64,000 nt of DNA from the NCBI GenBank assembly GCA_018241505.1, contig JAFEDS010000005.1:1-64000 (forward strand), given 5' to 3'. Source of the DNA: Pseudomonadota bacterium. GTDB lineage: Bacteria; Pseudomonadota; Gammaproteobacteria; Steroidobacterales; Steroidobacteraceae. Under the pieces are notes generated by a model that saw nothing but the letters and a program-made list of their open reading frames with translations, did not search any database and was not told where the DNA came from. This document shows positions 36,685 to 55,782 of the stretch, in pieces. The translations under genes were made by a program, and so were the position numbers. The number at the start of each line of letters is the position of its first letter. Position 1 is the stretch's first letter.

Positions 36685-36780
36685 GATCTTGCAATGACCC
36701 TTGAATAGCCGTTTAACGGACTCTCTGTCAAGCTCCCCACCCCCGGGCAAGTCTCTGATGTACCGGGAGGTAACGACGGG
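36685..36780. promoter_or_regulatory. Divergent betaine importer / betI-betB promoter region
   Basis: About 96 bp separate the importer start from the BetI-BetB fusion start. It contains an exact inverted repeat with a one-base centre, CCGTTTAACGG (36709-36719), the best operator candidate here for the BetI domain, and GGGAGG before the GTG start of the fusion. The motif does not obviously match the E. coli BetI operator. Confidence 0.45.
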
Positions 36781-40897: not shown

Positions 40898-41992
40898 TTG
40901 AGACCATTGCGGGCGTGTCTGGCTTTGTTCCTTGCGGGCGTTGCGTCCGCCTGCAGCCACGACCCGAATGAAAAGGTCGTGCACATCTACAACTGGGCCG
41001 ACTACATCGGCAAGGACACCGTGGCCCGGTTCGAGAAGGAAACGGGAATCCGGGTGGTCTATGACACCTACGATGCGGATGAGACTCTCGAGGCCAAGAT
41101 GATGGCCGGGGACTCCGGGTACGACATTGTCAGTACCTCCACCGACTACTTCAGCCGGCAGATCAAGGCGGGCATCTACCAGCCTCTGGACAAGTCGCGG
41201 TTGCCCGGCTGGAAGAACCTCGATCCCGAAGTGCTGCAGGACGAGGCCGTTGGCGATCCGGGCAACCGCCACGCCCTGCCTTACCTGCGTCACGTGAACG
41301 GCTTTGCCTACAACATCGAGCTGGTGAAAGCGCGCATGCCCGAGGCGCCCGTCGACAGTCTCGACCTGTTGTTCAAACCGGAAATCATTGCGAAGTTCGC
41401 CGACTGTGGGGTCACCTTCCTCGATTCCGCGGAGGATGTGCTGCAGCTCGCGCTCAACTACCTGCACATCGATCCGAACACCACGCGACCTGAAGATTAC
41501 AAGCGGGCGGAAAAGCTGATTCTGTCGGTTCGGCCTTATGTGCGTGCCTTCGATTCCACCGAGTACATGAACGGCCTGGCCGATCGGGAATTCTGCATTT
41601 CCATGTCCTGGTCCGGTGACTATGCCACCATCAAGGCGCGCGCTCGTTCAGCGGGAATCAATGTCCCCCTGGCGTTCACGATTCCCAAGGAAGGCGCCAA
41701 CAGGTCGGCGGACGCATTGCTCATCCCCAAGGATGCGCCGCATCTCGACTCCGCTTACGCCTTCCTCAATTTCATGCTGCGTCCAGACGTGATTGCACAG
41801 GTCACAAATGACATTCACTATGCCAACAACAACCTGGCGGCCAATCAGTACGTCAGTCCCGCCATCCTGAACGATCCGGCGGTGTACACCCCACCCGAGG
41901 TGCGCTCGAGGTTATACCAGTCCGCGGAAGTGTCCCCGGCGCTCGAACGCATCAGAACGCGCACTTGGACCCGTATCAAGACAGCGCGCTAA
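40898..41992 (+). CDS. PotD/PotF-like ABC substrate-binding protein
   Basis: A 364-residue periplasmic binding protein of the spermidine/putrescine family. It has a TTG start, a hydrophobic signal (ACLALFLAGVASACS, possibly a lipobox ending at Cys), and the family start VVHIYNWADYIGKDTV. YDIVSTSTDYFSRQIKAGIYQPLDK follows, split here as the PotD ligand-binding lobe. Members bind polyamines but also other cationic amines, so a quaternary amine or aminophosphonate is possible. The permeases lie at 43.8-45.5 kb on the other strand and a matching ATPase at 54.6 kb. It is followed after 11 bp by the TauD-type oxygenase. Confidence 0.87.
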   Translation: MRPLRACLALFLAGVASACSHDPNEKVVHIYNWADYIGKDTVARFEKETGIRVVYDTYDADETLEAKMMAGDSGYDIVSTSTDYFSRQIKAGIYQPLDKSRLPGWKNLDPEVLQDEAVGDPGNRHALPYLRHVNGFAYNIELVKARMPEAPVDSLDLLFKPEIIAKFADCGVTFLDSAEDVLQLALNYLHIDPNTTRPEDYKRAEKLILSVRPYVRAFDSTEYMNGLADREFCISMSWSGDYATIKARARSAGINVPLAFTIPKEGANRSADALLIPKDAPHLDSAYAFLNFMLRPDVIAQVTNDIHYANNNLAANQYVSPAILNDPAVYTPPEVRSRLYQSAEVSPALERIRTRTWTRIKTAR

Positions 41993-42003
41993 CGAGGACT
42001 CCC

Positions 42004-43128
42004 ATGTCAACCTTGCAAATCACCGGCCCCAACGAGCTCAGTATCGACACTGGCGGGACGCGTTTTCCAATTCACCCTTTGTGGTTGCGCGAGCGCTGTC
42101 TGGACTCGAAGTCGATCGATCTGCGCACCGGGCAACGCCTGGAGGATCCGTCCGATCTCGATTTGAAACTGGGGCTGTCCTCGGTGGCGGAAGTGGAGCC
42201 GGGCCGCTATCGCATCCGCTTCACTGACGGACACGAGGCAGACTTCGCGGCACGGGAGATTCTGGCCGAAGCCTCCCTGCCGCCGGGAGATCATGACTGT
42301 CCGCCCATCCGCCTGTGGAATAGTTCCCTGACCGACATCCCGCGGCTGCCCTGGTCCGCCCATCCGAGCGATGCCGAAAAGGCGAGTTGGATGATGCCAT
42401 TCCTGGAGTTGGGCTTCGTCATATTCACCGGCGTGCCGGCCGAGTCAAAACAGGTGTTGAAAGTCGGCTCGGCCTTCGGCTACGTGCGTGACACCAATTT
42501 CGGCGCGCACTTTGATGTGCGTTCGGTGCCGGACGCCAATGACCTGGCGTACACGTCATTGTTCCTCGACCCCCACACCGACAATCCCTATCGCTCGCCG
42601 GTGCCGGGGGTGCAGTTGTTGCACTGCCTGGTGAATGAGACTTCGGGCGGTTTGTCGACATTGGTCGACGGATTCGCGGCCGCGGAGACGCTGCGATCCC
42701 AGGATGCGGCGGCATTTCACGTGTTGGCGCAGACTCCGGTCCGCTTCAGGTTCCGGGATGTCGACACCGAGCTCATCCGCAGCTCGTCACTGATTGAGGT
42801 GGATGGGGTCGGTGGACTGCAGGCCATCAATTTCAGCCCGCGCCTGGACTATGTGCCGCTGCTGCCGCCGGTCCAGCTCACTGCGTACTTCGCGGCGCGC
42901 AAGAAGCTGGACAGCCTGCTGCGTTCACCGAAATACGAGATTCGCTTCCTGCTGAATGCGGGCGATCTCATGATGATGGATAATCGACGCTTGCTGCACG
43001 GGAGAACTTCGTTCGATACGCGCGAAGGGCTGCGCCACCTGCAAGGTTGTTATATCGATGTCGATGGACCGCGCAGCGTCTATCGTGTCTTGCGCCGCAA
43101 GCTTGCCGCATCGGGGAGCCAGTCATGA
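42004..43128 (+). CDS. TauD/gamma-butyrobetaine hydroxylase-like Fe(II)/2-oxoglutarate oxygenase
   Basis: A 374-residue non-haem iron oxygenase. An N-terminal GBBH-like (DUF971) domain (IHPLWLRERC) precedes the jelly-roll core with metal ligands His191 and Asp193 in DPHTDNPY and His332 in RRLLHGRTSFD. Characterised relatives act on trimethylammonium substrates: gamma-butyrobetaine hydroxylase and TmpA (2-trimethylaminoethylphosphonate hydroxylase). The ATG at 42004 with upstream GAGGA is preferred to a longer frame. It overlaps the HD-domain gene by 4 nt, the same pairing as TmpA/TmpB. The substrate is unproven. Confidence 0.87.
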   Translation: MSTLQITGPNELSIDTGGTRFPIHPLWLRERCLDSKSIDLRTGQRLEDPSDLDLKLGLSSVAEVEPGRYRIRFTDGHEADFAAREILAEASLPPGDHDCPPIRLWNSSLTDIPRLPWSAHPSDAEKASWMMPFLELGFVIFTGVPAESKQVLKVGSAFGYVRDTNFGAHFDVRSVPDANDLAYTSLFLDPHTDNPYRSPVPGVQLLHCLVNETSGGLSTLVDGFAAAETLRSQDAAAFHVLAQTPVRFRFRDVDTELIRSSSLIEVDGVGGLQAINFSPRLDYVPLLPPVQLTAYFAARKKLDSLLRSPKYEIRFLLNAGDLMMMDNRRLLHGRTSFDTREGLRHLQGCYIDVDGPRSVYRVLRRKLAASGSQS

Positions 43129-43709
43129 GCCGCGTTGTCAGCTTTCGCCGGATGGAAGACGGAACCAAGGAAGACTACGCGCTGTTGGATGAATCGGAGC
43201 GCAAGTACGCGGCCGGCTTGCCGGGGCGGGTCCTGCAGGCTGTGCGCAATCTGGACCATTCGTTGGAAGGTTATCCCGTCAGCCGGCTCGGTCATTCGCT
43301 GCAGACCGCAACCCGGGCGCTTCGCGATGGCGCCGACGATGAGCTGATTGTCGCGGCGTTGATGCACGACGTGGGCGATGAGCTTGCGCCTTATAACCAC
43401 GCCGAAGTGGCCGCCGGAATCATTCGGCCGTATGTACGGCCTGAAGTGACCTGGATCGTCGAGCAGCATGGGCTCGTGCAGACTTACTACTATGTGCATC
43501 ACAACGGCGGGAACCGCCACATGCGTGATGTGTTGAAGGGGCACAAGTGGTTTCAGGCCTGTGTGGACTTTTGCCACAAGTGGGATCAGGCCTCATTCGA
43601 TCCGGATTATCCCGCGTTGCCATTGGAGGCGTTTGAGGGACACGTGCAGCGGATTTTCGGGCGCAAGGCGCACGATCCGCGGTACACAAAGGAGGCCGCT
43701 TCGGCTTAG
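43125..43709 (+). CDS. HD-domain protein, candidate diiron oxygenase partner of the TauD-like enzyme
   Basis: A 194-residue single HD domain. All six diiron ligand positions of the PhnZ/TmpB/MIOX-type oxygenases can be placed: His57 (GHSLQTA), His81-Asp82 (MHDVGD), His92 (NH), His115 (QHG) and Asp154 (KWDQ). The second-shell His that follows HD by three in PhnZ is Asp85 here, and a Tyr (Tyr50) lies seven residues before His57. The start overlaps the oxygenase stop as ATGA, arguing for sequential action. It may be a C-P or C-N cleaving oxygenase like TmpB, or an ordinary phosphohydrolase; I favour the former. Confidence 0.75.
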   Translation: MSRVVSFRRMEDGTKEDYALLDESERKYAAGLPGRVLQAVRNLDHSLEGYPVSRLGHSLQTATRALRDGADDELIVAALMHDVGDELAPYNHAEVAAGIIRPYVRPEVTWIVEQHGLVQTYYYVHHNGGNRHMRDVLKGHKWFQACVDFCHKWDQASFDPDYPALPLEAFEGHVQRIFGRKAHDPRYTKEAASA

Positions 43710-43799: not shown

Positions 43800-44633
43800 T
43801 CAACCCCGCTCGGCGCTTTGCATCTCCAACAGCCGCTGTTTCTCAGCGCGGCGCATGAAATAGCCTGCGACAATCACGCACGTTCCCACGGCGCAGATGA
43901 TCAGGCTCGCCAGCGCGTTGACATCCGGGCTCACGCCCAACTTCACCTTGGAGTAGATGACCATGGGCAATGTGCTGGCACCCGGGCCCGATACGAAGCT
44001 CGAAATCACCAGGTCATCCAGCGACAGCGTAAAGCTCAGCAACCAGCTCGAGATCAGCGCCGGGGCAATAATGGGCAAAGTCACTTCAACAAACGCCTGA
44101 GCGGGGCTGGACCCCAGGTCCATGGCGGCTTCCTCCAGCGACCGGTCCGCGCTCTGCAGCCGCGACTGGACGGTCACCGTCACATAGGCGGTGCAAAACG
44201 CAATGTGTGCGATGACGATGGTCGTCAGGCCCCGGTGCGGCCAGGAAAACATCTGCAGCATGGACACAAACAACAGGAGCTGAGTGATGCCGGTAATGAT
44301 TTCCGGCATGACCAACGGCGCGTTCACCATGCCGGTGAGCATGAGCCTGCCCGGAAATCGGCCGAACCTGACGAGAGCAATTGACGCGAGGGTGCCCAAC
44401 ACAACCGCCGCGGTGGATGAGGCCACGGCAACCTCCAACGACAGCAGCGCCGCGTCCAATATCTGGCGGTTGTGAAACAGCGCCCCGTACCACTGTGTCG
44501 AGAATCCACCCCACACGCTGACCAGCGGCGATGCGTTGAATGAGTAGGCAATCAGCACGAGTATCGGAATGTAGAGTACGGCGATTCCGAAGCTCAGCGC
44601 TGCAAACAACACCGGTGAGAAACGCCTTTCCAC
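43800..44633 (-). CDS. Polyamine-type ABC transporter permease (PotC/PotI-like)
   Basis: About 277 residues with six predicted membrane helices and the cytoplasmic EAA loop LEEAAMDLGSSPAQAFVEVTLPIIAPAL (split here: EEAAMDLGSSPAQAF then VTLPIIAPAL), which contacts the ATPase. I chose the GTG at 44633 (VERRFSPVLFAAL), 5 bp after the upstream permease stop and preceded by AGGAAA. It pairs with the permease at 44639 and, by family, with the binding protein at 40898 and the ATPase at 54637. Confidence 0.88.
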   Translation of the reverse strand: MERRFSPVLFAALSFGIAVLYIPILVLIAYSFNASPLVSVWGGFSTQWYGALFHNRQILDAALLSLEVAVASSTAAVVLGTLASIALVRFGRFPGRLMLTGMVNAPLVMPEIITGITQLLLFVSMLQMFSWPHRGLTTIVIAHIAFCTAYVTVTVQSRLQSADRSLEEAAMDLGSSPAQAFVEVTLPIIAPALISSWLLSFTLSLDDLVISSFVSGPGASTLPMVIYSKVKLGVSPDVNALASLIICAVGTCVIVAGYFMRRAEKQRLLEMQSAERG

Positions 44634-44638
44634 GGGGA

Positions 44639-45529
44639 TCAGGTTTCCTGCTGCCGCACGTTGTAGTACTGATAGATTGCGATCGGGCCCGCAAGCAGGA
44701 ACAGGAAGGCGATCGCCACCGCCGAAGCGACCGGCCAATCATGGTTGCCAAAGAACTCATCCCACAGGACACGCCCGATCATCAGGTTGTCGGGGCCGCC
44801 CAACAGCGACGGAATGACAAACTCGCCCACGGCCGGAATGAACACCAGCATGGAGCCGGCAATGACCCCGGGGATCGACTGCGGCAAGGTGACATCGAGG
44901 AAGGCTCGCCACGGCGGACTGCCGAGGTCGGCCGCGGCTTCCAGCAGGGTGTTATCCAGTTTTTCCAGGGTGGCGAACAGCGGCAGCACCATGAAGGGCA
45001 GATACGAGTAGATGATGCCCAGGTACACAGCTACGCTGGTGCGCATGATTTTCAGTGGCTGGGATACGAGCCCGAGTTTCAATAACACCGTGTTGAGAAT
45101 TCCGCCATCCCGGATGACGCCTTCCAGCGCATAGACTCGAAGCAGGAACGAGGTCCAGAACGGCAGGATGATAATGAGCAGCAGGATGCTCTGGGTGGTC
45201 TTGGATGCCCGAGAGATTGCGTAGGCCATGGGATAGCCCAGCGCCAGGCAGATCAATGTTGAGAAGAAAGCGGTTTTCAGCGAGTAGAGGTAGGCGACAC
45301 CGTAGACTTCGTCGGTGAGCAGGTACTTGAAGTTCGCGAGGCTCACCGACAACTGCAGGTGGCCATCGGCGGTGCGCGTGAGGATGTCGGTAAAAGGCGG
45401 TACCCGCGGCGCGGTTTCGGCCAGGCTGATTTTGAAGGCGAACGCGAACGGGACCAGGAAGAAGACCGTGAGGAACAGCATTGGCGGAAGAATAATGAGC
45501 CAACGGCCCGGCCGCTCCAGCAATCTCAT
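44639..45529 (-). CDS. Polyamine-type ABC transporter permease (PotB/PotH-like)
   Basis: A 296-residue inner-membrane permease beginning MRLLERPGRWLIILPPMLFL. It has six predicted helices and the EAA loop LLEAAADLGSPPWRAFLDV followed by TLPQSIPGVIAG. It is the first gene of the permease pair and is divergent from the TetR-Rieske fusion regulator, 116 bp away, so that regulator is well placed to control it. Confidence 0.9.
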   Translation of the reverse strand: MRLLERPGRWLIILPPMLFLTVFFLVPFAFAFKISLAETAPRVPPFTDILTRTADGHLQLSVSLANFKYLLTDEVYGVAYLYSLKTAFFSTLICLALGYPMAYAISRASKTTQSILLLIIILPFWTSFLLRVYALEGVIRDGGILNTVLLKLGLVSQPLKIMRTSVAVYLGIIYSYLPFMVLPLFATLEKLDNTLLEAAADLGSPPWRAFLDVTLPQSIPGVIAGSMLVFIPAVGEFVIPSLLGGPDNLMIGRVLWDEFFGNHDWPVASAVAIAFLFLLAGPIAIYQYYNVRQQET

Positions 45530-45645
45530 GATTCCCGCCTGAAAGATGCCTGCGGGCTATTTTGCGATATAAACTTCAGGCCGTGTACAACTTTTGCCCG
45601 CCATGACGGGCGCGGCCGGCATAGGGCCGCAAGGTGAACAGCAAC
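45530..45645. promoter_or_regulatory. Divergent permease / TetR-Rieske fusion promoter region
   Basis: This 116-bp region contains an AT-rich stretch (TTTTGCGATATAAAC, about 45560-45574) suitable for a -10 region and an inverted repeat GCCCG CCATGA CGGGC (45596-45611). The latter lies just before AAGGTG, the ribosome-binding site of the fusion gene. Autoregulation of the fusion through this region is plausible. Confidence 0.4.
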
Positions 45646-47211
45646 ATGGCCAAAAAGAAGGCCAATGAAATCGCCCCAGTCCCCGAGCGCGCGTCCCGCG
45701 CCCGCCAGCGGCAGCGTCTGATTGACGCCTGTATCTCCGCGCTGCACATCCACGGCCCATCGCGTACCACTGTGGAAAAGGTTGTCGCGCTCGCTGACAT
45801 GTCCCCCGGCATCGTGCGTTTCTACTTCGACTCCAAGGACGCGATGCTGGTGGCATCGCTTGCCTACCTCGCGTCGGAATTCGAGGAACGGGTCATGGTC
45901 CCCGTATCTCAACTGAAGGCCACGCCGGTGAAAGCGTTGCAGCAGCTCGTTGAGCTGTATCTCGACCCCGAGATTGCCAGCCCCCGCAAAGTGTCCGTCT
46001 GGTACTCGTTCTGGGGCGAGGCGAGCTCCCGGCAGGAGTACCTGGAGCTGTGTGGCAAGAAGGACGAAGACTTCGCCGCCCTGGTCCTGGACCTCATTGA
46101 GCGCATGATTGCGCAAACCGGCCAAACACACCTGGATGCCGACGGTGTGGCCCTCGGGCTGATTGGCGTGCTCGAGGTGTTGTGGCAGGGAATTGCCTTT
46201 ACCCATGAGGCGCAAATCGACCGGGATGCCGCGAAACGGCGCTCGATCGCTTTTCTGCGCTCGGTGTTTCCCGGTCAATTCGCAGCTCCTGCCCGGGTGG
46301 CTGCCTCCGGCAACGGTGCGCAGGCTGTGCCGGCGAGCGTACCCGCCTGGGCTTATTCCAACAGCGCGTTGTTGGCTGTTGAGCGGGATCGTTTGTTTCG
46401 CCCTTCGTGGCAGCTTGTCGGCCATGAAGCGGATATTCCGCGAGTGGGCGACTACCTGACCGCAGACCTGGCCGGCGAACGGGTGTTGGTTGTGAGAACC
46501 GCGCCGGCCAAAATCCTGGCGTTTCGCAATAGTTGTCGCAAACGTCCGCATGCGTTGCTGATGGAGCGCTCCGGTCATTTGACTGACACAATCGGATGCG
46601 CAGCCCACGAGCTCGTGTACGGTCTCGACGGCAAGTTGCGCACAGGTGCTACAGCCGGCGATCTCATTCCCCTGGAGCTCGAGCTGCCGGGTAAATTCAT
46701 CCTGGTCCGTGCGCTCGCCGGCCGAAACGCCGAGCCTGCATCCACGGCGCTCCTGGAAATCGCCGGCGCGCCCTCGGGTGATTGGGAGTCACTGGCGGAT
46801 CTGAAGCCGGCAGGGTCGAGTGATCTGGTGGTGGCAGCCGATTGGAAGCTCATGGTCGAACAGTGGCTCGAAGCGCTGCCACGGCCGAAAGGGACGCGGC
46901 GCGCGTTCCTGACACCCAACCAACTGTTGGAAGTGAACGCCTCCGGGGCGGTTGTGCTCCAGGTGGTGCCCGAGTCCCCGGGGCGGTGCCGTATCCGGCG
47001 CCTGGACTATTCGAGCGCCCGGCGCAAGACCCCGTCCCCGGGTGAGGTGCCGGCGTGGTTGCAGCAGGATATTGATGTGGCGCAGTCCATGCAGGCCGGA
47101 CTCGCGGCCGGCATGGATGCTGCCGCGGAATCGGCCGGGCCGATCTCGGAGCAGCTCCAGGAGTTTCGTGCCGGCATTGCGGTCCTGTTGCCGCTGGCGC
47201 AGGGCGCATAA
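45646..47211 (+). CDS. TetR regulator fused to a degenerate Rieske oxygenase alpha subunit
   Basis: A single 521-residue frame. Residues about 15-210 are a BetI-like TetR repressor (RTTVEKVVALADMSPGIVRFYF). From about residue 227 (VPAWAYSN, RLFRPSWQLVGHEADIPRVGDYL) it aligns along its length with the intact Rieske oxygenase encoded next door. The cluster ligands there, Cys85/His87/Cys105/His108, become Cys297/Lys299/Cys318/His321. The iron-site DNYLESYHVPIGH becomes VEQWLEALPRPKG, with both His replaced (Pro412, Thr417) and Asn by Gln406. Catalysis is therefore unlikely, and the enzyme fold probably serves as ligand sensor. I preferred ATG 45646 with AAGGTG upstream; GTG 45634 is possible. 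It ends 4 bp from the convergent intact gene. Confidence 0.88.
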   Translation: MAKKKANEIAPVPERASRARQRQRLIDACISALHIHGPSRTTVEKVVALADMSPGIVRFYFDSKDAMLVASLAYLASEFEERVMVPVSQLKATPVKALQQLVELYLDPEIASPRKVSVWYSFWGEASSRQEYLELCGKKDEDFAALVLDLIERMIAQTGQTHLDADGVALGLIGVLEVLWQGIAFTHEAQIDRDAAKRRSIAFLRSVFPGQFAAPARVAASGNGAQAVPASVPAWAYSNSALLAVERDRLFRPSWQLVGHEADIPRVGDYLTADLAGERVLVVRTAPAKILAFRNSCRKRPHALLMERSGHLTDTIGCAAHELVYGLDGKLRTGATAGDLIPLELELPGKFILVRALAGRNAEPASTALLEIAGAPSGDWESLADLKPAGSSDLVVAADWKLMVEQWLEALPRPKGTRRAFLTPNQLLEVNASGAVVLQVVPESPGRCRIRRLDYSSARRKTPSPGEVPAWLQQDIDVAQSMQAGLAAGMDAAAESAGPISEQLQEFRAGIAVLLPLAQGA

Positions 47212-47215
47212 CCCG

Positions 47216-48382
47216 TCAAGCAAACTGGGCAGGGGCGCTGGGCAAACGCACTTCCGGGATCCTCTCCCGCAACAGGTCATGGAATTCCAACATGCAACTC
47301 TCGAGCGCCGACAGCGGGCCGGGCTCGTAGCTGCTGGAGGCCAGTCCCTGCTGCACCCGCCGGCATAGAAATTCGTCTTCGCGCTGGACCTGCCGGTTGA
47401 TGCGCGTCGACAGGTAGCGAACGATCCGCATCTCCCGGCGCGCGTCAGGACGCGCGAATGAGCCGCCCCGGATAGTGCACTTGCCCGGACCTCGCGGCAG
47501 TACCTGAAAGAAGTCCATCTGGTCGGGAAACACATCCACGCCCAGGTTTGGCAACATGCTGTAGAACGTCCAACGTTTGCGGTGAGTTTCCGGCAGATCC
47601 TCGGTCACCTTGCCAACCATCTGCGCATACATGCGCTCGCTCCACTTGGAGGAAGGGCGGTCGCGCAGCCAACTGATTCCCCGCGCAACACCGGATGGCA
47701 GGGTGGTCATGTCGTCGTAGTCCGGAGTAAACATCCGGAACAGTCCGGGATGTCCGATGGGCACGTGGTAGGACTCCAGGTAGTTGTCCATGGCCACTTT
47801 CCAGTCGACATCCCAATGCTCGATATACAGCGGGCCCAGCGGCTCCATGGCCTCGAACTGATGGGGCGTGAAGTCATCGAGGAAGCTGCCCCAGGTCGAC
47901 TCCAGCGGTGCGGGGTTACCCGCGAGGTTCACAAACACAAAGCCGAACTGAATCGACATGCGTACAGGTTTCAGCCCATGTTGAGACCGGTCGAGTCCCG
48001 GAAAGCTCTCGCGTGCCGGCATGCCAATCAACTCGCCGTTCAGCCGATACGACCAGCCGTGGTATGGGCACGTGATGGCGCCAGGACAGTTGCCTGTCCC
48101 TTCGAGAATGCGCGCACCACGGTGGCGGCAAACGTTGTGAAAGGCCTGTACCTGGCCTTGGGAGTTGCGCACGGCCACGACGCTATCGCCGCCGATGTCC
48201 AGGGTAATGAAGTCACCGGGATTGGGGATCGAGTTGACGTGACAGACGATCTGCCAGCTCGGCTTGAGGACCCGTTCATACTCGAGGCGGGTCATTTCGG
48301 GATGGCTGTACGCCCAGGCGGGCAACGCACGCGGCAGCGTGGAAACCGGGGTATCGAGAGTCTGCGCAGCAGGGGAATTCAT
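47216..48382 (-). CDS. Rieske non-haem iron oxygenase alpha subunit
   Basis: A 388-residue oxygenase with the full ligand sets: Rieske Cys85, His87, Cys105 and His108 (CRHRGAR, CPYHGW) and the mononuclear iron site DNYLESYHVPIGHPG (His206, His211). It has no accompanying reductase or beta subunit in the window. The start is the ATG at 48382 with GGGAAG upstream. The substrate is unknown; the amine-transport, aminotransferase and GcvT-like neighbours suggest N-dealkylation or hydroxylation of an amine. The adjacent fusion regulator carries a dead copy of this protein, which probably binds the same or a related ligand. Confidence 0.88.
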   Translation of the reverse strand: MNSPAAQTLDTPVSTLPRALPAWAYSHPEMTRLEYERVLKPSWQIVCHVNSIPNPGDFITLDIGGDSVVAVRNSQGQVQAFHNVCRHRGARILEGTGNCPGAITCPYHGWSYRLNGELIGMPARESFPGLDRSQHGLKPVRMSIQFGFVFVNLAGNPAPLESTWGSFLDDFTPHQFEAMEPLGPLYIEHWDVDWKVAMDNYLESYHVPIGHPGLFRMFTPDYDDMTTLPSGVARGISWLRDRPSSKWSERMYAQMVGKVTEDLPETHRKRWTFYSMLPNLGVDVFPDQMDFFQVLPRGPGKCTIRGGSFARPDARREMRIVRYLSTRINRQVQREDEFLCRRVQQGLASSSYEPGPLSALESCMLEFHDLLRERIPEVRLPSAPAQFA

Positions 48383-48501
48383 GGTGCTTCCCACGAAAAT
48401 TATATGACCATGCAATTCTACCTGAAGAAATTATATATTCATATAGACGATGACCTTCTCCGGTGGTACCGTGCCGGCAAGGCATCAGGAGAGCGCGCAC
48501 C
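48383..48501. promoter_or_regulatory. AT-rich divergent promoter between Rieske oxygenase and aminotransferase
   Basis: From about 48395 to 48450 the sequence is markedly AT-rich against a GC-rich background. It holds a repeated AAATTATAT (about 48398 and 48429) and outer inverted copies TATATG (48401-48406) / CATATA (48440-48445). This is the natural control region for both flanking genes and the best candidate target of the TetR-Rieske fusion protein. Confidence 0.5.
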
Positions 48502-49830
48502 ATGTCCCGTAAAATGAACCAGAACAATGCGCACTTCCGGCAGGCAGTCCGGCGATTGCCCCTGGGAGTCGCCTCCAATTTCCGCTACTGGGGCGAAGAG
48601 CGCACGATCTACATCAAGCAGGGTCGCGGCGCGCGGATCGTCGATCTCGACGATAATGTCTATATCGATTACCGCCTCGGATACGGCCCTGCCATCCTGG
48701 GCTACGCCGATCCCCGCGTGGATGAGGCGGCCCGCAAGGGGATGGAAGTCGGCGGCGTGTTCGCGCTTTCGACCGAACGTGAATACACGGTCGCCGAGCG
48801 CATCTCAAAGATGGTGCCGGCCGCGGAGTTGGTTCGCTTTTCAAACTCGGGCACCGAGGCTGTCATGGCTGCGTTGCGTCTGGCGCGCGCCTACACCAAG
48901 AAGGATGACTACGTCATTCTCGAGGGCAGTTACCACGGATTGTTCGATGCGGCGATGTGGTACACGCCCATGGACAAATGGGGCCAGGTGGGCGATCCCG
49001 AGGTTTATCCTTACAGTGAAGGGATTCCCGTCAGCACCAAGAGCTTTGCGCATTTTGTGCAGGCGAATGACGCCAACCAGCTCGAGGACGTGTTCAAGCG
49101 CAAGGCGGGCCGGATCGCCTGCTTGTTGATTGAGCCCATCATGGGCAACTGTCTGGGAATCGCAGCCGATCCCGAGTACCTGCGTACGGCGCGGGCCCTT
49201 TGTGACAAGCACGGTGTCGTGTTGATCATCGATGAAGTGAAGACGGGGTTCCGGGTCGCCAAAGGCGGCGTACAACAGCTATACGGTGTCAAAGCCGACT
49301 TGTGCACCTTTGCAAAGGCCGTCGCGAATGGATACCCCATTTCGGTGCTCGCCGGGCGCGAAGACATCATGAGAAAAATCGGCAAGGGAGTCGCCCATGG
49401 TGGGACCTACACGGCCCATTCAGTGTCTCTGGCCGCTGCCGAAAAGACCCTCGAGATTCTCGATGAGACGGACGCGTTGGAGCGCATCGCCGACTATGGG
49501 ACGCGTTTGCGCAATGGCATGAGCGTAAGCCTGAAAGCCCGCGGAATTGCCCACAGCTTCGTAGGGCATCCATCCATGAGTGGCTTGTATTTCGCGAAGG
49601 ACCCGCCACGCAACTATCGCGATTGGAAGGGCAGTGACTATTCCTTCTACGACGCTGCCGCAAAGGTGCTTCACGATGAGCGCATCCTGTGCGAGCCCGA
49701 CTCGCGGGAACCGTGGTTCATCAGCGCGGCCCATGACGAATCCTGTCTCACAGAAACCCTTGCCGCATTCGAGATCGCGATAGACACTACGCTGCGGTCC
49801 GCTGGATCGACCCACAAAAAGTCCGGTTGA
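48502..49830 (+). CDS. Class III pyridoxal-phosphate aminotransferase
   Basis: A 442-residue fold-type I PLP enzyme related to glutamate-1-semialdehyde aminomutase and omega-aminotransferases. Visible are RFSNSGTEAVMAALRLARAY (cofactor phosphate region), LIIDEVKTGFRV (Asp contacting the pyridine nitrogen) and the Schiff-base Lys272 in CTFAKAVANGYP. No hem genes are nearby, so a catabolic transamination of an amino-bearing intermediate is more likely than haem synthesis. AGGAGA precedes the ATG at 48502. It is the first gene of the rightward block ending with the ABC ATPase. Confidence 0.88.
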   Translation: MSRKMNQNNAHFRQAVRRLPLGVASNFRYWGEERTIYIKQGRGARIVDLDDNVYIDYRLGYGPAILGYADPRVDEAARKGMEVGGVFALSTEREYTVAERISKMVPAAELVRFSNSGTEAVMAALRLARAYTKKDDYVILEGSYHGLFDAAMWYTPMDKWGQVGDPEVYPYSEGIPVSTKSFAHFVQANDANQLEDVFKRKAGRIACLLIEPIMGNCLGIAADPEYLRTARALCDKHGVVLIIDEVKTGFRVAKGGVQQLYGVKADLCTFAKAVANGYPISVLAGREDIMRKIGKGVAHGGTYTAHSVSLAAAEKTLEILDETDALERIADYGTRLRNGMSVSLKARGIAHSFVGHPSMSGLYFAKDPPRNYRDWKGSDYSFYDAAAKVLHDERILCEPDSREPWFISAAHDESCLTETLAAFEIAIDTTLRSAGSTHKKSG

Positions 49831-49839
49831 GCAGGCGGG

Positions 49840-51525
49840 GTGGGAGCGATGGCTACTAGTTTATTGGCGCGGCACTCGCCGCGCGGCAAGCGGTATGACG
49901 TCATCGTCATCGGTGCCGGCCACAACGGGCTGGTGGCCGCGTGCTACCTCGCGCGGTCGGGTCTCGATGTGCTCGTACTCGAACGTAATCCGTACATTGG
50001 CGGTGCGGCCGTCAGCCGCCAGTTGTACAAGGATTTCACGTACTCAAACTGCTCCTACGTCTGCAGCCTATTGCGCACGGAGATTATCCGCACATTGGAC
50101 CTGCCCAGATTTGGGTTGCAGGTAATTCCGTATGACGGTGGGTGCACGATGATGCGCGACGGAAATCATCTCGCGCTCTACGACAATCACGATGCCCTTC
50201 GCCGTGAGATCTCGCGTCACTCCAAACGAGACAGTGAAGCATACGACCGTTTTGTCCGTGACATGCTTCGTCACTGCAGGTTTATCAAACCATTGCTGCT
50301 ACGCGAGCCTCCCGACCCGACATCATTCAAGCCGCGCGACATCATGGAGTTGCTGTACCTGGGTAAGCACTTCCATAAGCTCGGTGAGGCACAGATGTAC
50401 GACACGCTGCGCTTCTGGACGATGAGTTGTGCGGATCTGCTCGATGAGTACTTCGAGAGTGAGATTGTCAAAGCGCACATGGCCGGTAGCTCGATCATTG
50501 GAACTGCTCTGGGTCCGAGATCGCCTGGTACCGCGTATGTACTGCTGCATCACTATATGGGCAGCATCGACGGGACTGTCGGCGCGTGGGGTTTCGCTCG
50601 CGGTGGGATGGGCGCTGTAACGTCCGCGCTCTCGAAGTCGTTTCAGGCGAGTGGCGGCACGATCCGATGTGCGGCTCCAGTCCATCAAATACTCGTGCGG
50701 AACGGTCGAGCTATTGGAGTGGCACTCGACGACGGTGAAGAGATTCACGCTCGCACAGTCGTCTCTAACATGGACGTGCGCCGCACGTTCCTCGAAACGA
50801 TGGATTCACACGACTTGCCGGACGATTTCGTTAAACGAGTGCGGCATTTCAAGATCCGCGGGTCGTCGGGAAAGCTCAATATTGCGTTGGATGCGCTACC
50901 GAGCTTTCCGTCTATTCCTGCAGGTTCTCCGTCGACTCGCGGCGATATGCACGTTACCGACACCATCGAGATGTTGGAGCGGGCCTATGACGATTGGAAG
51001 GACGGACGGTGGTCTCGGGCTCCGTACATTGACATGCTGATACCGTCGCAGATTGACCCTACGATGGCACCTGATGGGAAACACTACATGTCGGTGTTTG
51101 TGCAGTATTGTCCCTATCAACTGGCGGATGGGGAGTGGAACGATGCGCGGCGCAAGGCGTTCGGCGACACCGTCATCGACACGATCTCGAGGGTCAGCCC
51201 CAACTTCAAGGATCTCATTTTGCATGCGGAGATCCGCACGCCTTGGGACATCGAGAATGAGGTTGGATTGACGGAGGGGAATATTTTCCAGGGCGAGCTG
51301 ACGTTCGATCAGTTGCTGTTCAACCGGCCGGTTCCCGGGTACGCCCAGTACCGCGCGCCGGTGCGGGGGATGTACATGTGCGGGTCGAGCACCCACCCCG
51401 GTGGGGGCGTGATGGGCGCTCCTGGGTACAACGCCGCGGGAGCGATTTTGCGGGATATGGGGCGAGCCGCTGCTGGCGAACCGGAGCGCGATGGCGCCGT
51501 GGAGCGAAAGGTGGCGGGGCTGTGA
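49840..51525 (+). CDS. FAD-dependent oxidoreductase, phytoene dehydrogenase-like (COG1233 type)
   Basis: A 561-residue flavoprotein with VIVIGAGHNGLVAACYLARSG as dinucleotide fold (from residue about 20) and the C-terminal PVRGMYMCGSSTHPGGGVMGAPG FAD block, split here as GMYMCGSSTHPGGG. The family includes carotenoid desaturases and amine oxidases, but no carotenoid genes are present. Its pairing with a second homologue and a GcvT-like protein argues for amine oxidation. The start is GTG 49840 or ATG 49849; either way the first codons come from the dispersed repeat. Codon choice looks less GC-biased than in neighbouring loci. Confidence 0.85.
   Translation: MGAMATSLLARHSPRGKRYDVIVIGAGHNGLVAACYLARSGLDVLVLERNPYIGGAAVSRQLYKDFTYSNCSYVCSLLRTEIIRTLDLPRFGLQVIPYDGGCTMMRDGNHLALYDNHDALRREISRHSKRDSEAYDRFVRDMLRHCRFIKPLLLREPPDPTSFKPRDIMELLYLGKHFHKLGEAQMYDTLRFWTMSCADLLDEYFESEIVKAHMAGSSIIGTALGPRSPGTAYVLLHHYMGSIDGTVGAWGFARGGMGAVTSALSKSFQASGGTIRCAAPVHQILVRNGRAIGVALDDGEEIHARTVVSNMDVRRTFLETMDSHDLPDDFVKRVRHFKIRGSSGKLNIALDALPSFPSIPAGSPSTRGDMHVTDTIEMLERAYDDWKDGRWSRAPYIDMLIPSQIDPTMAPDGKHYMSVFVQYCPYQLADGEWNDARRKAFGDTVIDTISRVSPNFKDLILHAEIRTPWDIENEVGLTEGNIFQGELTFDQLLFNRPVPGYAQYRAPVRGMYMCGSSTHPGGGVMGAPGYNAAGAILRDMGRAAAGEPERDGAVERKVAGL
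49855..49886 (+). repeat. Partial copy 4 of the dispersed repeat, inside a coding region
   Basis: ACTAGTTTATTG followed by hairpin B, GCGCGGC (49867-49873) / GCCGCGC (49878-49884) around ACTC. It matches the ACTAGT...TTATTGGCGCGGC end of copy 1 and lacks hairpin A. It lies within the first codons of the flavoprotein gene, contributing roughly residues TSLLARHSPRG. Confidence 0.7.
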
Positions 51526-51583
51526 GACTGTCAGGCATCGAAGCGGGCCGTGTGCAGGCGCTCGTGGCCGAGGCGAGGCGGCC

Positions 51584-53170
51584 ATGGTAGCGGCGGCCGG
51601 CGGCGCGCGCTACGACTGCATCGTCGTCGGCGGCGGTCACAACGGCCTCGTGTGCGCGGCCTATTTGGCGCGCGGCGGCCGATCGGTGCTGGTGCTTGAA
51701 GCGGCGAACGAAGTGGGCGGCGCCGCCGTGACTCGCGAGTTCGCACCCGGCTTTCGCGTATCCGCTTGCGCTCATCTATTGCACTCGATGTCGGGTGCAA
51801 TGATTCGGGACCTCCAGCTAGAGAATCACGGTCTCGAGTTCGCGGCTCGTCACATGCAAACCGTCGCGTTGTCGACCGACGGCGCGCCTATTGCCCTCGG
51901 GGCGACAGCCGTCACTATGGGCACAGGCACGGCGGAATCAGGCGCCGACGCAGCCGCGTACCCTGGGTATGTTGAGCTCTTGAATCGTCTTGCGCAGGCA
52001 CTGCGCCCAATGCTCGATTCAGTGCCGCCGCGATTGGGCACGGACTCATGGGCTGACAAACGGGCGCTGTTGCAACTCGGCTGGCAGATCCGCCGCCTCG
52101 GCCGCCAGGACATGCGCGAGTTATTGCGCATTGGCGGCATGAATGTGTACGACCTGCTGAAAGAACACTTCAATTCCCCCTTGCTGCAAGGCGCCCTCGG
52201 TTTCGACGCTGTTCTCGGCAGCAATTTTGGACCGCGGTCGCCGGGGTCGGTTTTCACGCTGTTGTATCGTCTAGCTGCTGCGTTCGAAGCGGGCGGTGCA
52301 CCTCTTTCGCAACCCGCGGGCGGCCTCGGATCCTTATCCCGGGCGTTGGCTGCCGCGGCGGTCGCAGCAGGCGCTGAAGTGAGAACGAATTCTGCAGTTC
52401 AGCGAATCACGGTTCATAAGCACCGCACATCCGGCGTCCAGCTTGCTTCGGGTGAAACGATTGTGGCCGACACTGTGATTTCGAACGTAGATCCGCAGGC
52501 AACATTCTTGCGGCTGTTGGGACCTGAGTACTTAGACGCTGGGTTTACGCGCCGAGTGTCTCATCTGCGTACCCGCGGCCTTACTGCAAAACTTCATCTC
52601 GCGTTGGAAGACTTACCCAGGTTTGCGGGCGTCTCAGCGGATGCGCTTGGTGGTCGACTGCTGATTGCGCCGTCGCTGGAGTACCTGGAGCGCGCGTTCA
52701 ATCATTCGAAGTACGGCGAGTTTTCGAGCGCACCGGCAATTGAAATCACGCTACCAACGGTCAATGACCCAACGCTTGCGCCTTCGGGGAAGCACGTACT
52801 TTCGGCGGTTGTTCAATACGCGCCTTACGCGTTGAAGGAAGGGTGGGATCAAGGGCGCCAGCAATTTACCGACATCGTTGTGGATACCATTAAACGATAT
52901 TCACCGGGGTTGAATGACTCGATCATTTCGGCACAACTGCTAACGCCAGAGGACATTGAGCGCGAGTTCAGGATCACTGGTGGTCATTGGCATCACGCGG
53001 AGCTGGCCCTCGACCAGTTCTTCATGATGCGGCCGGTGCCCGGTGCGGCTCAGTATCAGACGCCAGTGGATGGTTTGTATTTGTGTGGCGCTGGGTGCCA
53101 TCCCGGCGGAGGTGTAATGGGCACCGCAGGTCGAAATGCCGCACGGCAGGTGTTGGGGGAGGCGGCCTGA
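51584..53170 (+). CDS. Second FAD-dependent oxidoreductase, phytoene dehydrogenase-like
   Basis: A 528-residue paralogue of the preceding flavoprotein. The FAD motif IVVGGGHNGLVCAAYLARGG lies near the N terminus and GLYLCGAGCHPGGGVMGTAG near the C terminus. The ATG at 51584 follows a GAGGCG site and the frame upstream is not conserved-looking. The two proteins may form a heterodimer or act on successive intermediates. Its stop overlaps the GcvT-like start by one base (TGATG). Confidence 0.85.
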   Translation: MVAAAGGARYDCIVVGGGHNGLVCAAYLARGGRSVLVLEAANEVGGAAVTREFAPGFRVSACAHLLHSMSGAMIRDLQLENHGLEFAARHMQTVALSTDGAPIALGATAVTMGTGTAESGADAAAYPGYVELLNRLAQALRPMLDSVPPRLGTDSWADKRALLQLGWQIRRLGRQDMRELLRIGGMNVYDLLKEHFNSPLLQGALGFDAVLGSNFGPRSPGSVFTLLYRLAAAFEAGGAPLSQPAGGLGSLSRALAAAAVAAGAEVRTNSAVQRITVHKHRTSGVQLASGETIVADTVISNVDPQATFLRLLGPEYLDAGFTRRVSHLRTRGLTAKLHLALEDLPRFAGVSADALGGRLLIAPSLEYLERAFNHSKYGEFSSAPAIEITLPTVNDPTLAPSGKHVLSAVVQYAPYALKEGWDQGRQQFTDIVVDTIKRYSPGLNDSIISAQLLTPEDIEREFRITGGHWHHAELALDQFFMMRPVPGAAQYQTPVDGLYLCGAGCHPGGGVMGTAGRNAARQVLGEAA

Positions 53171-54603
53171 TGCGTAATCCTGACGCCAGCGAGGGCGCGC
53201 TTGAGTCGACGGTGGCGGGCGGGCCTGAGTTGGTTGCCGCCATGAGCGCGTCCGCTGGCGCTCGGCCGCCCGCCGGAGGCGGAGCCGCCCACGCGTCCGC
53301 TGGCGCCCAATCGCCCGCAGCCGTCCATGCGTCCGCTGGTGCCCAATCCCCCGCCGCCGCCCATGCTGCTGCCGGCGCAGTAGTCGCACGCCCCGCGCTC
53401 GTTCCGGGGCCCGCCCCCCACTACGTGCAACCGCTACTCAAAACTCCTTTCCACAACCGCGCCCGCGCTCTAAGCCAACGCGACAGCTTCATCCCATGGG
53501 CGGGTTACACCACCGTCGACGTCTTCACCAACGTCGAACAGGAATACTTCGCGATCCGCAACGCGACGACCTTGTATGACCTGACCCCAATGGTGAAATA
53601 CCGCATTGCCGGCCCGTCCGCTCTCGCGTATCTGAATCGTCTAGTCACCCGCTACATCAGCAAACTCAAGGTGGGACGCGTCGCCTATTGCGTTTGGTGC
53701 AACGACGCCGGTCATCTCATTGATGACGGGACAGTGTTTCGCCTCGGGGAAAACGAATACCGATTGTGCACCGCTGAGCGTCAATTGGACTGGCTGCTCT
53801 CGAGTGCCATAGGTTTCAATGAACTCGTGATCGAAGAGGTCACTGAGCAAATCGCGGCCTTGGCGATGCAAGGTCCGACTTCGTACGCGGTCCTCGCTGT
53901 CGCGGGATTGGTCGGCATTGAACGCCTCAAGCCATTCGAGATTGGGGCATTTGATCTCGATGGTGCCAGCTTGATGGTGTCTCGTACGGGCTTCACCGGT
54001 GACCTGGGTTACGAGCTTTGGATGGATCCGAGTCAGGCTGAGCGCGTGTGGGACATTCTGATGGCGGCGGGATCCACGCGTGGCATACGCGCGATCGGTT
54101 CCAGTGCGCTGAATATTGCCCGTATTGAGGCGGGTTTTCTGCAGCCCAACGTGGACTTTGTGTCGAGCGCACACACGGTTTTGATCGGACGCGACCGATC
54201 GCCACTGGAGCTGGGACTCGAATGGCTGGTCGATTTCGACAAGCCGCATTTCACGGGACGGCGCGCACTGGTTGACGAAAAGCGCCGTGGCTCGGCGAGG
54301 CGACTGGTCGGATTGGACGTCGATGGAAACAAACCCGCGCATAACGCGCTGCTGTATTCTGACCGGGGCGGGCGGAAGGAAGTCGGGAGCATCACATCGG
54401 CTACTTGGTCGCCCACCTGTAAGCGTAATATTGCGCTCGGGATAATCGACGCGCCTCATTTTGCGACGGGTAGTACAGTGTGGGCGGACATCTATTTGAA
54501 TCGCGAGCTCGTGTGGGAGCGACGTATGGTGCGTGCGCGCATCGTTGACCGGCCATTCTTCGCGCCCGACCGGCGCAAAGCGACCCCGCCTGGAAACTAC
54601 TAG
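53170..54603 (+). CDS. GcvT-family aminomethyltransferase-like protein with Ala-rich N-terminal extension
   Basis: A 477-residue protein. Residues 1 to about 85 are low-complexity, rich in Ala, Gly, Pro and Ser. The rest is a folate-binding GcvT fold (AIRNATTLYDLTPMVKYRI, MVSRTGFTGDLGYELWMD, RIEAGFLQPNVDF). GcvT-like proteins transfer one-carbon units from amines to tetrahydrofolate and serve as demethylases or as the C-terminal half of dimethylglycine dehydrogenase. Here the two flavoproteins just upstream could oxidise an N-methyl group that this protein captures (inference). It is translationally coupled to the second flavoprotein. Confidence 0.85.
   Translation: MRNPDASEGALESTVAGGPELVAAMSASAGARPPAGGGAAHASAGAQSPAAVHASAGAQSPAAAHAAAGAVVARPALVPGPAPHYVQPLLKTPFHNRARALSQRDSFIPWAGYTTVDVFTNVEQEYFAIRNATTLYDLTPMVKYRIAGPSALAYLNRLVTRYISKLKVGRVAYCVWCNDAGHLIDDGTVFRLGENEYRLCTAERQLDWLLSSAIGFNELVIEEVTEQIAALAMQGPTSYAVLAVAGLVGIERLKPFEIGAFDLDGASLMVSRTGFTGDLGYELWMDPSQAERVWDILMAAGSTRGIRAIGSSALNIARIEAGFLQPNVDFVSSAHTVLIGRDRSPLELGLEWLVDFDKPHFTGRRALVDEKRRGSARRLVGLDVDGNKPAHNALLYSDRGGRKEVGSITSATWSPTCKRNIALGIIDAPHFATGSTVWADIYLNRELVWERRMVRARIVDRPFFAPDRRKATPPGNY
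53248..53364 (+). repeat. 36-bp tandem repeats encoding ASAGAQSPAAxH
   Basis: Two near-identical 36-bp units (53293-53328 and 53329-53364) and a degenerate third (from 53248) encode repeated ASAGAQSPAAVH-like peptides at the N terminus of the GcvT-like protein. Such in-frame arrays can expand or shrink, so the N-terminal length probably varies between strains. Confidence 0.75.
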
Positions 54604-54636
54604 CAGGGTTACCGCGCTGGGCGCCGAGGCGCGCCC

Positions 54637-55782
54637 ATGATCGCCAACCAACAGAAACCCAACCCCGAGCGCCCGTGGCTCGACCCTGCGGCAACGCCGC
54701 AAATTGTCATCAATGGTGTGAGCAAAACCTACGGCGGCTTCACCGCCGTCGACAATATCAGTCTGTCTATCTACAAAGGCGAAATGTTCGCACTCGTGGG
54801 TGCTTCCGGCTGTGGCAAAACCACGTTGCTGAGAATGCTCGCCGGGTTCGCGAATCAGACGTCCGGGCAGATTACGATAGACGGCATTGAGATGGCGGGT
54901 GTGCCCCCGCACGAGCGACCCGTCAACATGATGTTTCAGTCATATGCGCTCTTTCCCCACATGACGGTGGAAAAGAACGTGGGTTATGGCTTGAAACGGA
55001 TGGATCTCGATAGCTCGGCGAAAAAGCAGCGGGTCAAAGACGCGCTCGATATGGTTCAACTTGGGCATCTCGGACAGCGCAAGCCGCACCAGCTTTCGGG
55101 TGGCCAACGCCAACGCGTGGCCCTGGCGCGTGCGCTCATCCGAAGGCCGAAGGTATTGTTGCTCGACGAACCTTTGTCGGCACTCGACAAGAAGCTTCGG
55201 GAGAAGACGCAGTTTGAGTTGATGGACCTGCAGCACCAGGTGGGCATTACATTCATCGTCGTGACGCACGATCAGGATGAAGCGATGGCGCTCGCTACGC
55301 GCATCGCCGTTATGGATCGGGGAAAAGTGGTGCAGGTGGGCACGCCGTCAGAAATCTACGAATTTCCACAGAGCCGATTTGTGGCGGACTTTGTGGGCAC
55401 GACCAATCTATTTGAGGGGACCGTGGTTACCTGTGAGCCGGGGTTGATCACAGTGAATTGCGCGGAGACGGGTTGTGATCTCGTGGTCGACGACGTAGGC
55501 CGGTTCACGCCCGGGCAAAAGGTGTGGGTCGCGTTGCGACCGGAGAAGATCCGCCTGAGCAAGCAACCGAGCGCCGGCGGACGTGTCAACCAACTGAAGG
55601 GCATGGTGTGGGAGTTGGGGTACCTGGGAAACCGTTCGACGTATCAAATCAAAACGGCCACGGGCAAAATCGTTACGGTGTTCGCGCAAAACGAGCGGCG
55701 GACGTCGGAGTGGTCGATTGATTGGAGCGACGAGGTGTACGTTACTTGGAGTGTGGACGCGGCAGTGCTGCTGCACACCTGA
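54637..55782 (+). CDS. Polyamine-type ABC transporter ATP-binding protein (PotA-like)
   Basis: A 381-residue ATPase: Walker A GASGCGKTTLLRMLAG, signature LSGGQRQRVALARAL, Walker B LLLDEPLSALDKKL, switch His in VVTHDQDEAMA, and a C-terminal TOBE domain. The QSYALFPHMTVEKNVGYGL Q-loop segment is typical of PotA. The permeases (43.8-45.5 kb) and binding protein (40.9 kb) of the same family lie in the same locus but in other transcription units, so it most likely completes that importer. Confidence 0.9.
   Translation: MIANQQKPNPERPWLDPAATPQIVINGVSKTYGGFTAVDNISLSIYKGEMFALVGASGCGKTTLLRMLAGFANQTSGQITIDGIEMAGVPPHERPVNMMFQSYALFPHMTVEKNVGYGLKRMDLDSSAKKQRVKDALDMVQLGHLGQRKPHQLSGGQRQRVALARALIRRPKVLLLDEPLSALDKKLREKTQFELMDLQHQVGITFIVVTHDQDEAMALATRIAVMDRGKVVQVGTPSEIYEFPQSRFVADFVGTTNLFEGTVVTCEPGLITVNCAETGCDLVVDDVGRFTPGQKVWVALRPEKIRLSKQPSAGGRVNQLKGMVWELGYLGNRSTYQIKTATGKIVTVFAQNERRTSEWSIDWSDEVYVTWSVDAAVLLHT

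Follow-up and report, generated by a model that had tools for sequence, protein, structure and literature searches.

What becomes of an oxygenase subunit that is joined in one reading frame to a TetR-type repressor and has lost the ligands of its active site? The locus raising this question lies in a genome of the Steroidobacteraceae, in a stretch of 64,000 nucleotides that was analysed as a whole and is called the window here. The first-pass annotation proposed that a duplicated catabolic oxygenase had been captured as the ligand-binding module of the repressor of its own pathway. We have analysed the fusion protein, P0001, together with its neighbourhood and its relatives. The best reading that we can infer is that P0001 would be a two-input repressor of an amine-catabolism cluster, with a tail that senses the metal or redox state or docks on a free oxygenase.

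The fusion protein and its neighbourhood

The features used in this work are, with positions in the window:

40898..43709 (+): PotD-like binding protein, TmpA-like dioxygenase and HD-domain protein
43800..45529 (-): divergent PotC/PotB-like ABC permease genes (43800-44738 and 44639-45529; PF00528), conserved beside the fusion
45530..45645 (no strand): divergent intergenic region, candidate promoter/operator, within which an 18-base block at 45558-45575, upstream of potB, is conserved
45646..47211 (+): TetR-Rieske fusion protein P0001, a single open frame of 521 amino acids
45721..45855 (+): TetR_N helix-turn-helix domain (PF00440), P0001 residues 26-70
45931..46263 (+): BetI-type TetR C-terminal domain, P0001 residues 96-206
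46405..46647 (+): Rieske-like domain of the tail (PF00355, 35.4 bits), residues 254-334
46534..46551 (+): loop of the first ligand pair, C297-R-K299-R-P-H302, with Lys299 in place of the canonical His and H302 retained
46597..46608 (+): loop of the second ligand pair, C318-x-x-H321, in its canonical form and conserved
46837..47208 (+): catalytic region, shortened and dead (residues 398-521), with P412 and T417 at the HX4H positions and an acid retained at 405
47216..48382 (-): P0002, an intact Rieske oxygenase of 388 amino acids encoded on its own, with CxH..CxxH and DNYLESYHVPIGH present, convergent with P0001 and 4 bp from it
48463..55782 (+): class III aminotransferase, two amine-oxidase-type FAD oxidoreductases, GcvT-like protein and PotA-like ABC ATPase, a conserved cluster

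That one frame joins a BetI-like TetR domain to a homologue of Rieske oxygenases was confirmed by the frame and by its Pfam domains, where TetR_N scored 25.7 bits (cut-off 24) and the BetI-type C-terminal domain, PF13977, 42.3 bits (cut-off 27). BetI, the TetR repressor of choline genes, which is not known to carry a Rieske-type tail, was the best NCBIfam match of the TetR half, but with 70.9 bits this match stays well under the BetI equivalog cut-off of 201.3. Judging from sequence, the TetR half would provide DNA binding that a ligand releases.

The tail had been described as a full-length oxygenase and is in fact shortened in its catalytic half. The catalytic domain is only weakly recognised (Ring_hydroxyl_A, 18.2 bits, below the cut-off of 24.9); 4/4 intact fusions scanned passed this cut-off with 109-133 bits. 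A recognisable fold around the lost ligands, on the other hand, is borne out by the predicted structure (pLDDT 89.6), which has a Rieske oxygenase fold and in which residues 225-516 match Rieske oxygenases over both the Rieske domain and the alpha-subunit fold. Quaternary-ammonium oxygenases (CntA, stachydrine demethylase) are among the best, tied fold matches and occupy Foldseek rows 1-16.

A frameshift or assembly artefact merging two genes was ruled out, because the full-length frame recurs in 13 of 98 other genomes, all 13 among the 57 genomes of the same genus. Besides these, the fusion is interrupted by a contig end in G009 and shortened in G031, and eight further genomes of the genus carry an unfused orthologue of P0001 without the tail. 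A collection of relatives was gathered with patterns located in the TetR half, and the best 80 of 145 relatives were kept, many of them on the same contigs as in the 98-genome search. Of these 80 loci, 49 hold a degenerate fusion at full length, 7 a fusion with all catalytic ligands and 8 an unfused form, the remaining 16 being other or incomplete forms, and the record titles are mostly those of metagenome assemblies, Gammaproteobacteria, Proteobacteria or Steroidobacteraceae. Among plasmids, neither P0001 (E up to 1e-5) nor the intact fusion (E up to 1e-40) was covered to 80% by any record.

P0002 carries all motifs and is indeed the intact oxygenase copy reported 4 bp away. Among the best 80 of 145 relatives, a P0002-type neighbour (at least 50% identity) was present in 42 of the 49 degenerate-fusion loci and in 0/7 intact-fusion loci. 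Four of the seven degenerate loci lacking it have just 1.0-3.3 kb of downstream DNA; the other three (L076, L082, L084) have about 9 kb downstream, with no P0002-type oxygenase.

Rieske oxygenases form alpha-3 trimers in which the subunits are bridged by an acid. The tail could accordingly be a docking subunit that joins the P0002 trimer, so that the amount or state of the enzyme would hold the repressor off or on the DNA. The neighbourhood of 42/49 degenerate fusions is in line with this, as are the predicted retention of the alpha-subunit fold in the P0001 tail, the Glu or Asp found at position 405 in 48/50 degenerate fusions, and the 4-base overlap between an intact fusion and a free intact oxygenase gene in genome G676; the three loci with about 9 kb of downstream DNA argue the other way, and we regard docking as a rather doubtful possibility.

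The Pot names were assigned here from family matches to ABC transporter parts, and the TmpA model scored 350 bits, under its cut-off of 400. Further surroundings include a choline ABC transporter and a choline dehydrogenase. By its gene content the P0001 region is an amine-catabolism region, and the substrate class of the cluster is probably a quaternary or methylated amine. Rhizobium sp. SL42 and Shinella plasmids have a related cluster in which the TetR and the Rieske oxygenase are separate genes. Identity to the P0001 cluster is 65-67% for the FAD oxidoreductase, 49-53% for the GcvT-like protein and 51-53% for the ABC ATPase, and only 24-30% for the aminotransferase and 34% for the Rieske protein.

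With up to 4 mismatches allowed, the 18-base block precedes potB in 21 of the best 80 loci (from 145 relatives); the 12 loci that served to define it were part of this count. It is kept in tail-less relatives and stays with potB where the gene order differs. No regulon can be claimed, since no second copy was found in the P0001 cluster, including the Rieske/aminotransferase promoter.

Two more composite proteins were observed in the window. At 36781-38880 (+) a BetI-type TetR is fused to a betaine aldehyde dehydrogenase that is complete (777.7 bits against a cut-off of 593); this second regulator-enzyme fusion aligns to its end (residue 699) in 22 of the 98 other genomes, all of the same genus, and partially in five more (G012, G033, G044, G050, G051), and in a neighbouring genus (G059) the betaine aldehyde dehydrogenase matches without the TetR part. 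At 34840-36750 (-) a choline-binding protein and a transporter permease form one chain.

Metal-ligand positions and selection on the tail

The ligand replacements reported for P0001, the cluster His by Lys299 and the two iron His by Pro412 and Thr417, were all found. For comparison with relatives we used an alignment, A3, of P0001, the 49 degenerate fusions and 6 of the 7 intact fusions; counts for degenerate fusions refer to the 49 loci plus P0001 (n=50). Omitted from A3 were L112 (intact type, 5' end missing), the 8 unfused forms (L093, L095-L099, L101, L105), forms cut by contig ends (L058, L063, L085, L086, L110) or with the 5' end missing (L083), L113, where the frame is broken at an ambiguous base, and forms with a short or other C-terminus (L100, L103, L106, L116). 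In two of the last, at L103 8974-10062 and L106 6598-7773, what follows the TetR domain is another kind of C-terminal extension, to which no Pfam model matched.

His at 412 and 417 occurs in 0/50 degenerate against 6/6 intact fusions. As for the acid of the iron site, P0001 keeps an Asp at 475, like 11/50 degenerate fusions, and the surroundings of the former iron site (positions 410-418) are gapped and poorly conserved across them. C297, H302 and C318 are invariant (50/50) and H321 is present in 49/50. The canonical cluster His at 299 is kept in only 8/50, P0001 itself reading CxK...CxxH in place of CxH...CxxH. Loss of the same ligands in homologues, as had been anticipated, thus holds for both iron His (gone in 50/50) and only in part for the cluster His.

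Ranked by conservation among the 297 tail columns, C297, H302 and C318 tie for first place with five others and H321 is ninth; the lost ligand positions 299, 412 and 417 rank 204, 147 and 274. The chance of the three remaining canonical ligands all falling within the 15 columns that are at least 98% conserved is about 1e-4, a figure which treats columns as equal and independent and beside which H302 was noticed afterwards. From the ligand and conservation pattern of the 50 degenerate fusions it follows that the oxygenase chemistry has been lost, yet that the metal-site region is among the best-kept parts of the tail. The loss of oxygenase chemistry claimed at the outset therefore stands, in a fusion that is conserved and under selection. 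The companion claim that the cluster chemistry is gone is right in that the canonical His is mostly replaced, but the other three ligands and H302 are among the most conserved tail columns.

H302 was considered as a newly gained ligand and this was not upheld, as His is already present in 4/5 intact tails of the tree set (5/6 in the alignment). Ala stands at this position in the intact G676 fusion, and none of 18 free P0002-type enzymes has His there. The residue is thus probably inherited and may be structural; as an inherited residue it may have taken over as a ligand. Taken together, the residue pattern suggests a kept or shifted metal site in degenerate tails, from CxH...CxxH to CX4H...CxxH. 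The latter motif also occurs outside A3 in L058, L063, L072, L083 and L085, and L086 is without H321.

The same data bear on the proposal of the first-pass annotation that the dead active site binds the pathway amine and signals to the repressor. The tied fold matches to quaternary-ammonium oxygenases (Foldseek rows 1-16) point in this direction, and MocR regulators set a precedent, their enzyme fold having been retained to bind an effector (PMC6677901). Against it are the poor conservation of the 410-418 region in a shortened catalytic half without an iron site, the BetI-type domain that the TetR half has of its own, the eight tail-less orthologues in the genus, and the occurrence of tail-less forms beside the same cluster. 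We consider a ligand-binding role of the tail distinctly improbable.

The dN/dS of degenerate tails is 0.17-0.51 (18 pairs), which indicates purifying selection, and the tail evolves faster than the TetR half in 17/17 degenerate pairs where both could be computed. Some tails outside A3 are in decay: an internal deletion in L071 removes C297 and H302, with C318 changed to Tyr, the frame of L072 stops at 339 amino acids, and in L089, L094 and L102 the tail is reduced to a stub. The 8 unfused TetRs of the genus fall in two places inside the degenerate group of the TetR tree, so tail loss at least twice is the simplest account. Given the tail-less orthologues, the three stubs and the internal deletion, the regulator can do without its tail.

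After the oxygenase died, the tail might then be only an extension for folding or stability that is slowly being lost, a structural remnant. The two tree places of the tail-less forms, the stubs, the deletion, the early frame end and the faster evolution of the tail agree with this. The dN/dS values, the 300-amino-acid open frame retained in 49 loci and the metal-ligand positions among the most conserved columns do not; the dN/dS in particular weakens a neutral remnant as the full account, which stays a rival that we judge unlikely.

Intact fusions and the descent of the degenerate tail

Homologues with intact metal ligands and oxygenase activity had been named as grounds for refutation. Fusions with every metal ligand do exist, 7 among the best 80 of 145 relatives (Inquilinus and others); they come from isolates of Inquilinus limosus, among other sources, and from a genome in the Inquilinus family that is recorded as Mycobacterium sp. 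KBS0706. Within this family the intact fusion was found at 95-100% identity in 5/17 genomes, counting the query's own genome and one copy without a start at a contig end. A search of 398 Pseudomonadota genomes (E up to 1e-60, best 3 candidates per genome) gave no full-length match to the intact fusion, and P0001's own genome matched it over 12-422. In 385 genomes of the Inquilinus class (E up to 1e-80, best 3 candidates per genome) at least two matches were full-length, the Inquilinus query's own and G676. Seven long-frame loci examined among the 398-genome matches contained 0 fusions; a separate TetR-like gene adjoins the Rieske gene in five (L133, L136, L137, L138, L140) and was not found adjoining in L132 and L150. 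The TetR and Rieske genes are thus neighbours more widely than they are fused.

At L210 10140-13315, in G676, an intact TetR-Rieske fusion is followed by a free intact Rieske oxygenase. The fused and the adjacent free oxygenase are 56% identical and look like sisters, with a support of only 57. The G676 TetR is nearest to unfused TetRs in the tree, so G676 is probably an independent fusion, with weak tree support, and, going by its gene arrangement, local duplication is probably able to produce a fusion.

No other Rieske match (E up to 1e-20) was found on the Inquilinus-type contigs with the fusion and transporter (G099:C26, G100:C80) or on those with the FAD oxidoreductase homologue (G100:C180, G101:C29); on the G101 fusion contig a second Rieske gene lies about 95 kb off. 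It is plausible that the fused enzyme serves the amine pathway in Inquilinus-type genomes. The intact fusion need not regulate the cluster there, because free TetRs accompany the cluster genes: one of the same family stands beside the aminotransferase in the Inquilinus cluster, and the L107 and L115 genomes have one on the contig with the FAD oxidoreductase homologue.

The Rieske tree unites 22 degenerate tails in a single clade and 18 free P0002-type enzymes in a second one. Four of the intact tails come together, supported at only 85, and the fifth, L115, joins free enzymes. Constraining the degenerate and the four intact tails to be monophyletic costs 0.10 log-likelihood units (AU p 0.5), and the degenerate tails with the free type 8.8 units (AU p 0.30); neither is rejected. 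Of the signature columns of degenerate tails, 9 are common with intact tails, L115 excluded, against 3 with the free type. The TetR tree separates the 45 rows of the fused group, among them the tail-less sisters, from 15 unfused TetRs (support 99/92), and the split was recovered in 100% of 200 bootstrap trees; five long-branched rows were excluded from this tree (the BetI-BADH TetR, L177, L178, L188, L116) and the long L107 and L115 were kept. In a fuller tree the support of the split was 96 and the unfused L116 lay within the fused group. Adding the TetR of G676, a further intact fusion, lowered the support for the split to 32. Long branches weaken both the Rieske and the TetR trees.

Shared descent of degenerate tails and intact fusions is by these sequence comparisons supported, not settled. 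The alternative is a tail derived from a duplicated free P0002-type oxygenase, separately from the Inquilinus-type fusion. Its AU p of 0.30 leaves it standing, the G676 pair has the look of sisters beside a TetR nearest to unfused ones, and the drop to 32 upon adding this TetR is to its credit; the 8.8 against 0.10 units, the signature columns and the 99/92 split without G676 count against it, and we find a separate origin rather unlikely. The duplication of the neighbouring pathway oxygenase that was originally assumed is on the same evidence the less supported account.

Proposed role and related regulators

As best explanation we tentatively put forward that P0001 is a local repressor of the amine uptake and demethylation cluster with the tail as a metal or redox input. 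The TetR half would bind DNA, its own BetI-type pocket taking an amine, and would repress the divergent potB and neighbouring genes in an amine-responsive manner, as its family and position suggest. The tail would descend from a Rieske oxygenase subunit. Probably the oxygenase was catalytically competent when the fusion arose, the state that Inquilinus shows today; in the P0001 lineage the tail would then have lost the mononuclear iron site and part of the pocket, leaving the chemistry to the free oxygenase. As a second, non-catalytic input it may read the iron-sulfur or redox state and adjust repression, whereby the cluster would not be expressed when its Rieske chemistry cannot run.

The fusion, its conservation, purifying selection on it, the ligand pattern and the cluster linkage on which this explanation builds are observed and the fold is predicted; DNA binding, effector, metal binding and redox sensing of P0001 are putative. 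A metal or redox input is favoured because the conserved features of the tail are the cluster region and the acid at 405, and for the tail we favour it over docking on the free oxygenase, docking over a remnant, and a remnant over a substrate pocket. A precedent for a redox input are the tetralin genes, which are regulated by a Rieske ferredoxin and a ferredoxin-reductase homologue (PMC3771892). These proteins, ThnA3 and ThnY, are like P0001 in that electron-transfer parts of an oxygenase act as regulators; unlike P0001 they are separate proteins working with a LysR-type activator, with no fusion and no oxygenase subunit.

Other known systems offer comparisons. MocR/GabR regulators are similar in having a DNA-binding domain and a catabolic-enzyme fold with catalysis lost, the cofactor site kept and a regulatory function (PMC6677901). 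Their domains are a GntR-type winged helix-turn-helix and a PLP aminotransferase fold, whereas the Pfam domains of P0001 are TetR and Rieske, and the TetR half of P0001 keeps its own ligand-type domain, unlike MocR/GabR. Trifunctional PutA, an RHH domain on a proline-oxidising flavoenzyme, is repressor and pathway enzyme in one chain (PMC5293562), like the intact fusions. PutA is catalytically active and P0001 is not expected to be, its iron site being lost, and the domains are unrelated; the intact TetR-Rieske fusions, with all ligands present in sequence, resemble PutA as putative enzyme-repressors.

CntA and stachydrine demethylase, Rieske oxygenases of quaternary amines, are enzymes with all ligands and are not known to carry a DNA-binding domain. 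The statement that no regulator with a TetR-Rieske architecture had been described agrees with our search, as no such fusion was found in the open-access literature searched (titles and abstract starts). Enzyme-derived regulators are a known kind (MocR/GabR, PutA); for a TetR-Rieske family that has both intact and dead members, that literature gave no example.

The TetR-Rieske fusions could constitute a new class of enzyme-derived regulators in which every stage is present: separate genes, fusions with all catalytic ligands that could repress their own genes, and a pseudo-oxygenase sensor whose migrated CX4H...CxxH site reports the redox or iron-sulfur state of the pathway to the promoter, possibly via mixed trimers with the free enzyme. 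As a whole this is a possibility that we consider less likely than not. To our knowledge, regulators made from enzymes seldom have living intermediates for comparison. Here one can align unfused, intact-fused, partly dead, dead and tail-less forms, which opens the individual steps between enzyme and sensor to testing. An altered metal site, should it prove real, would be a new form of the Rieske ligand set and would tie iron-sulfur status directly to an amine-degradation operon. P0001 has the appearance of an enzyme on its way to becoming part of a sensor.
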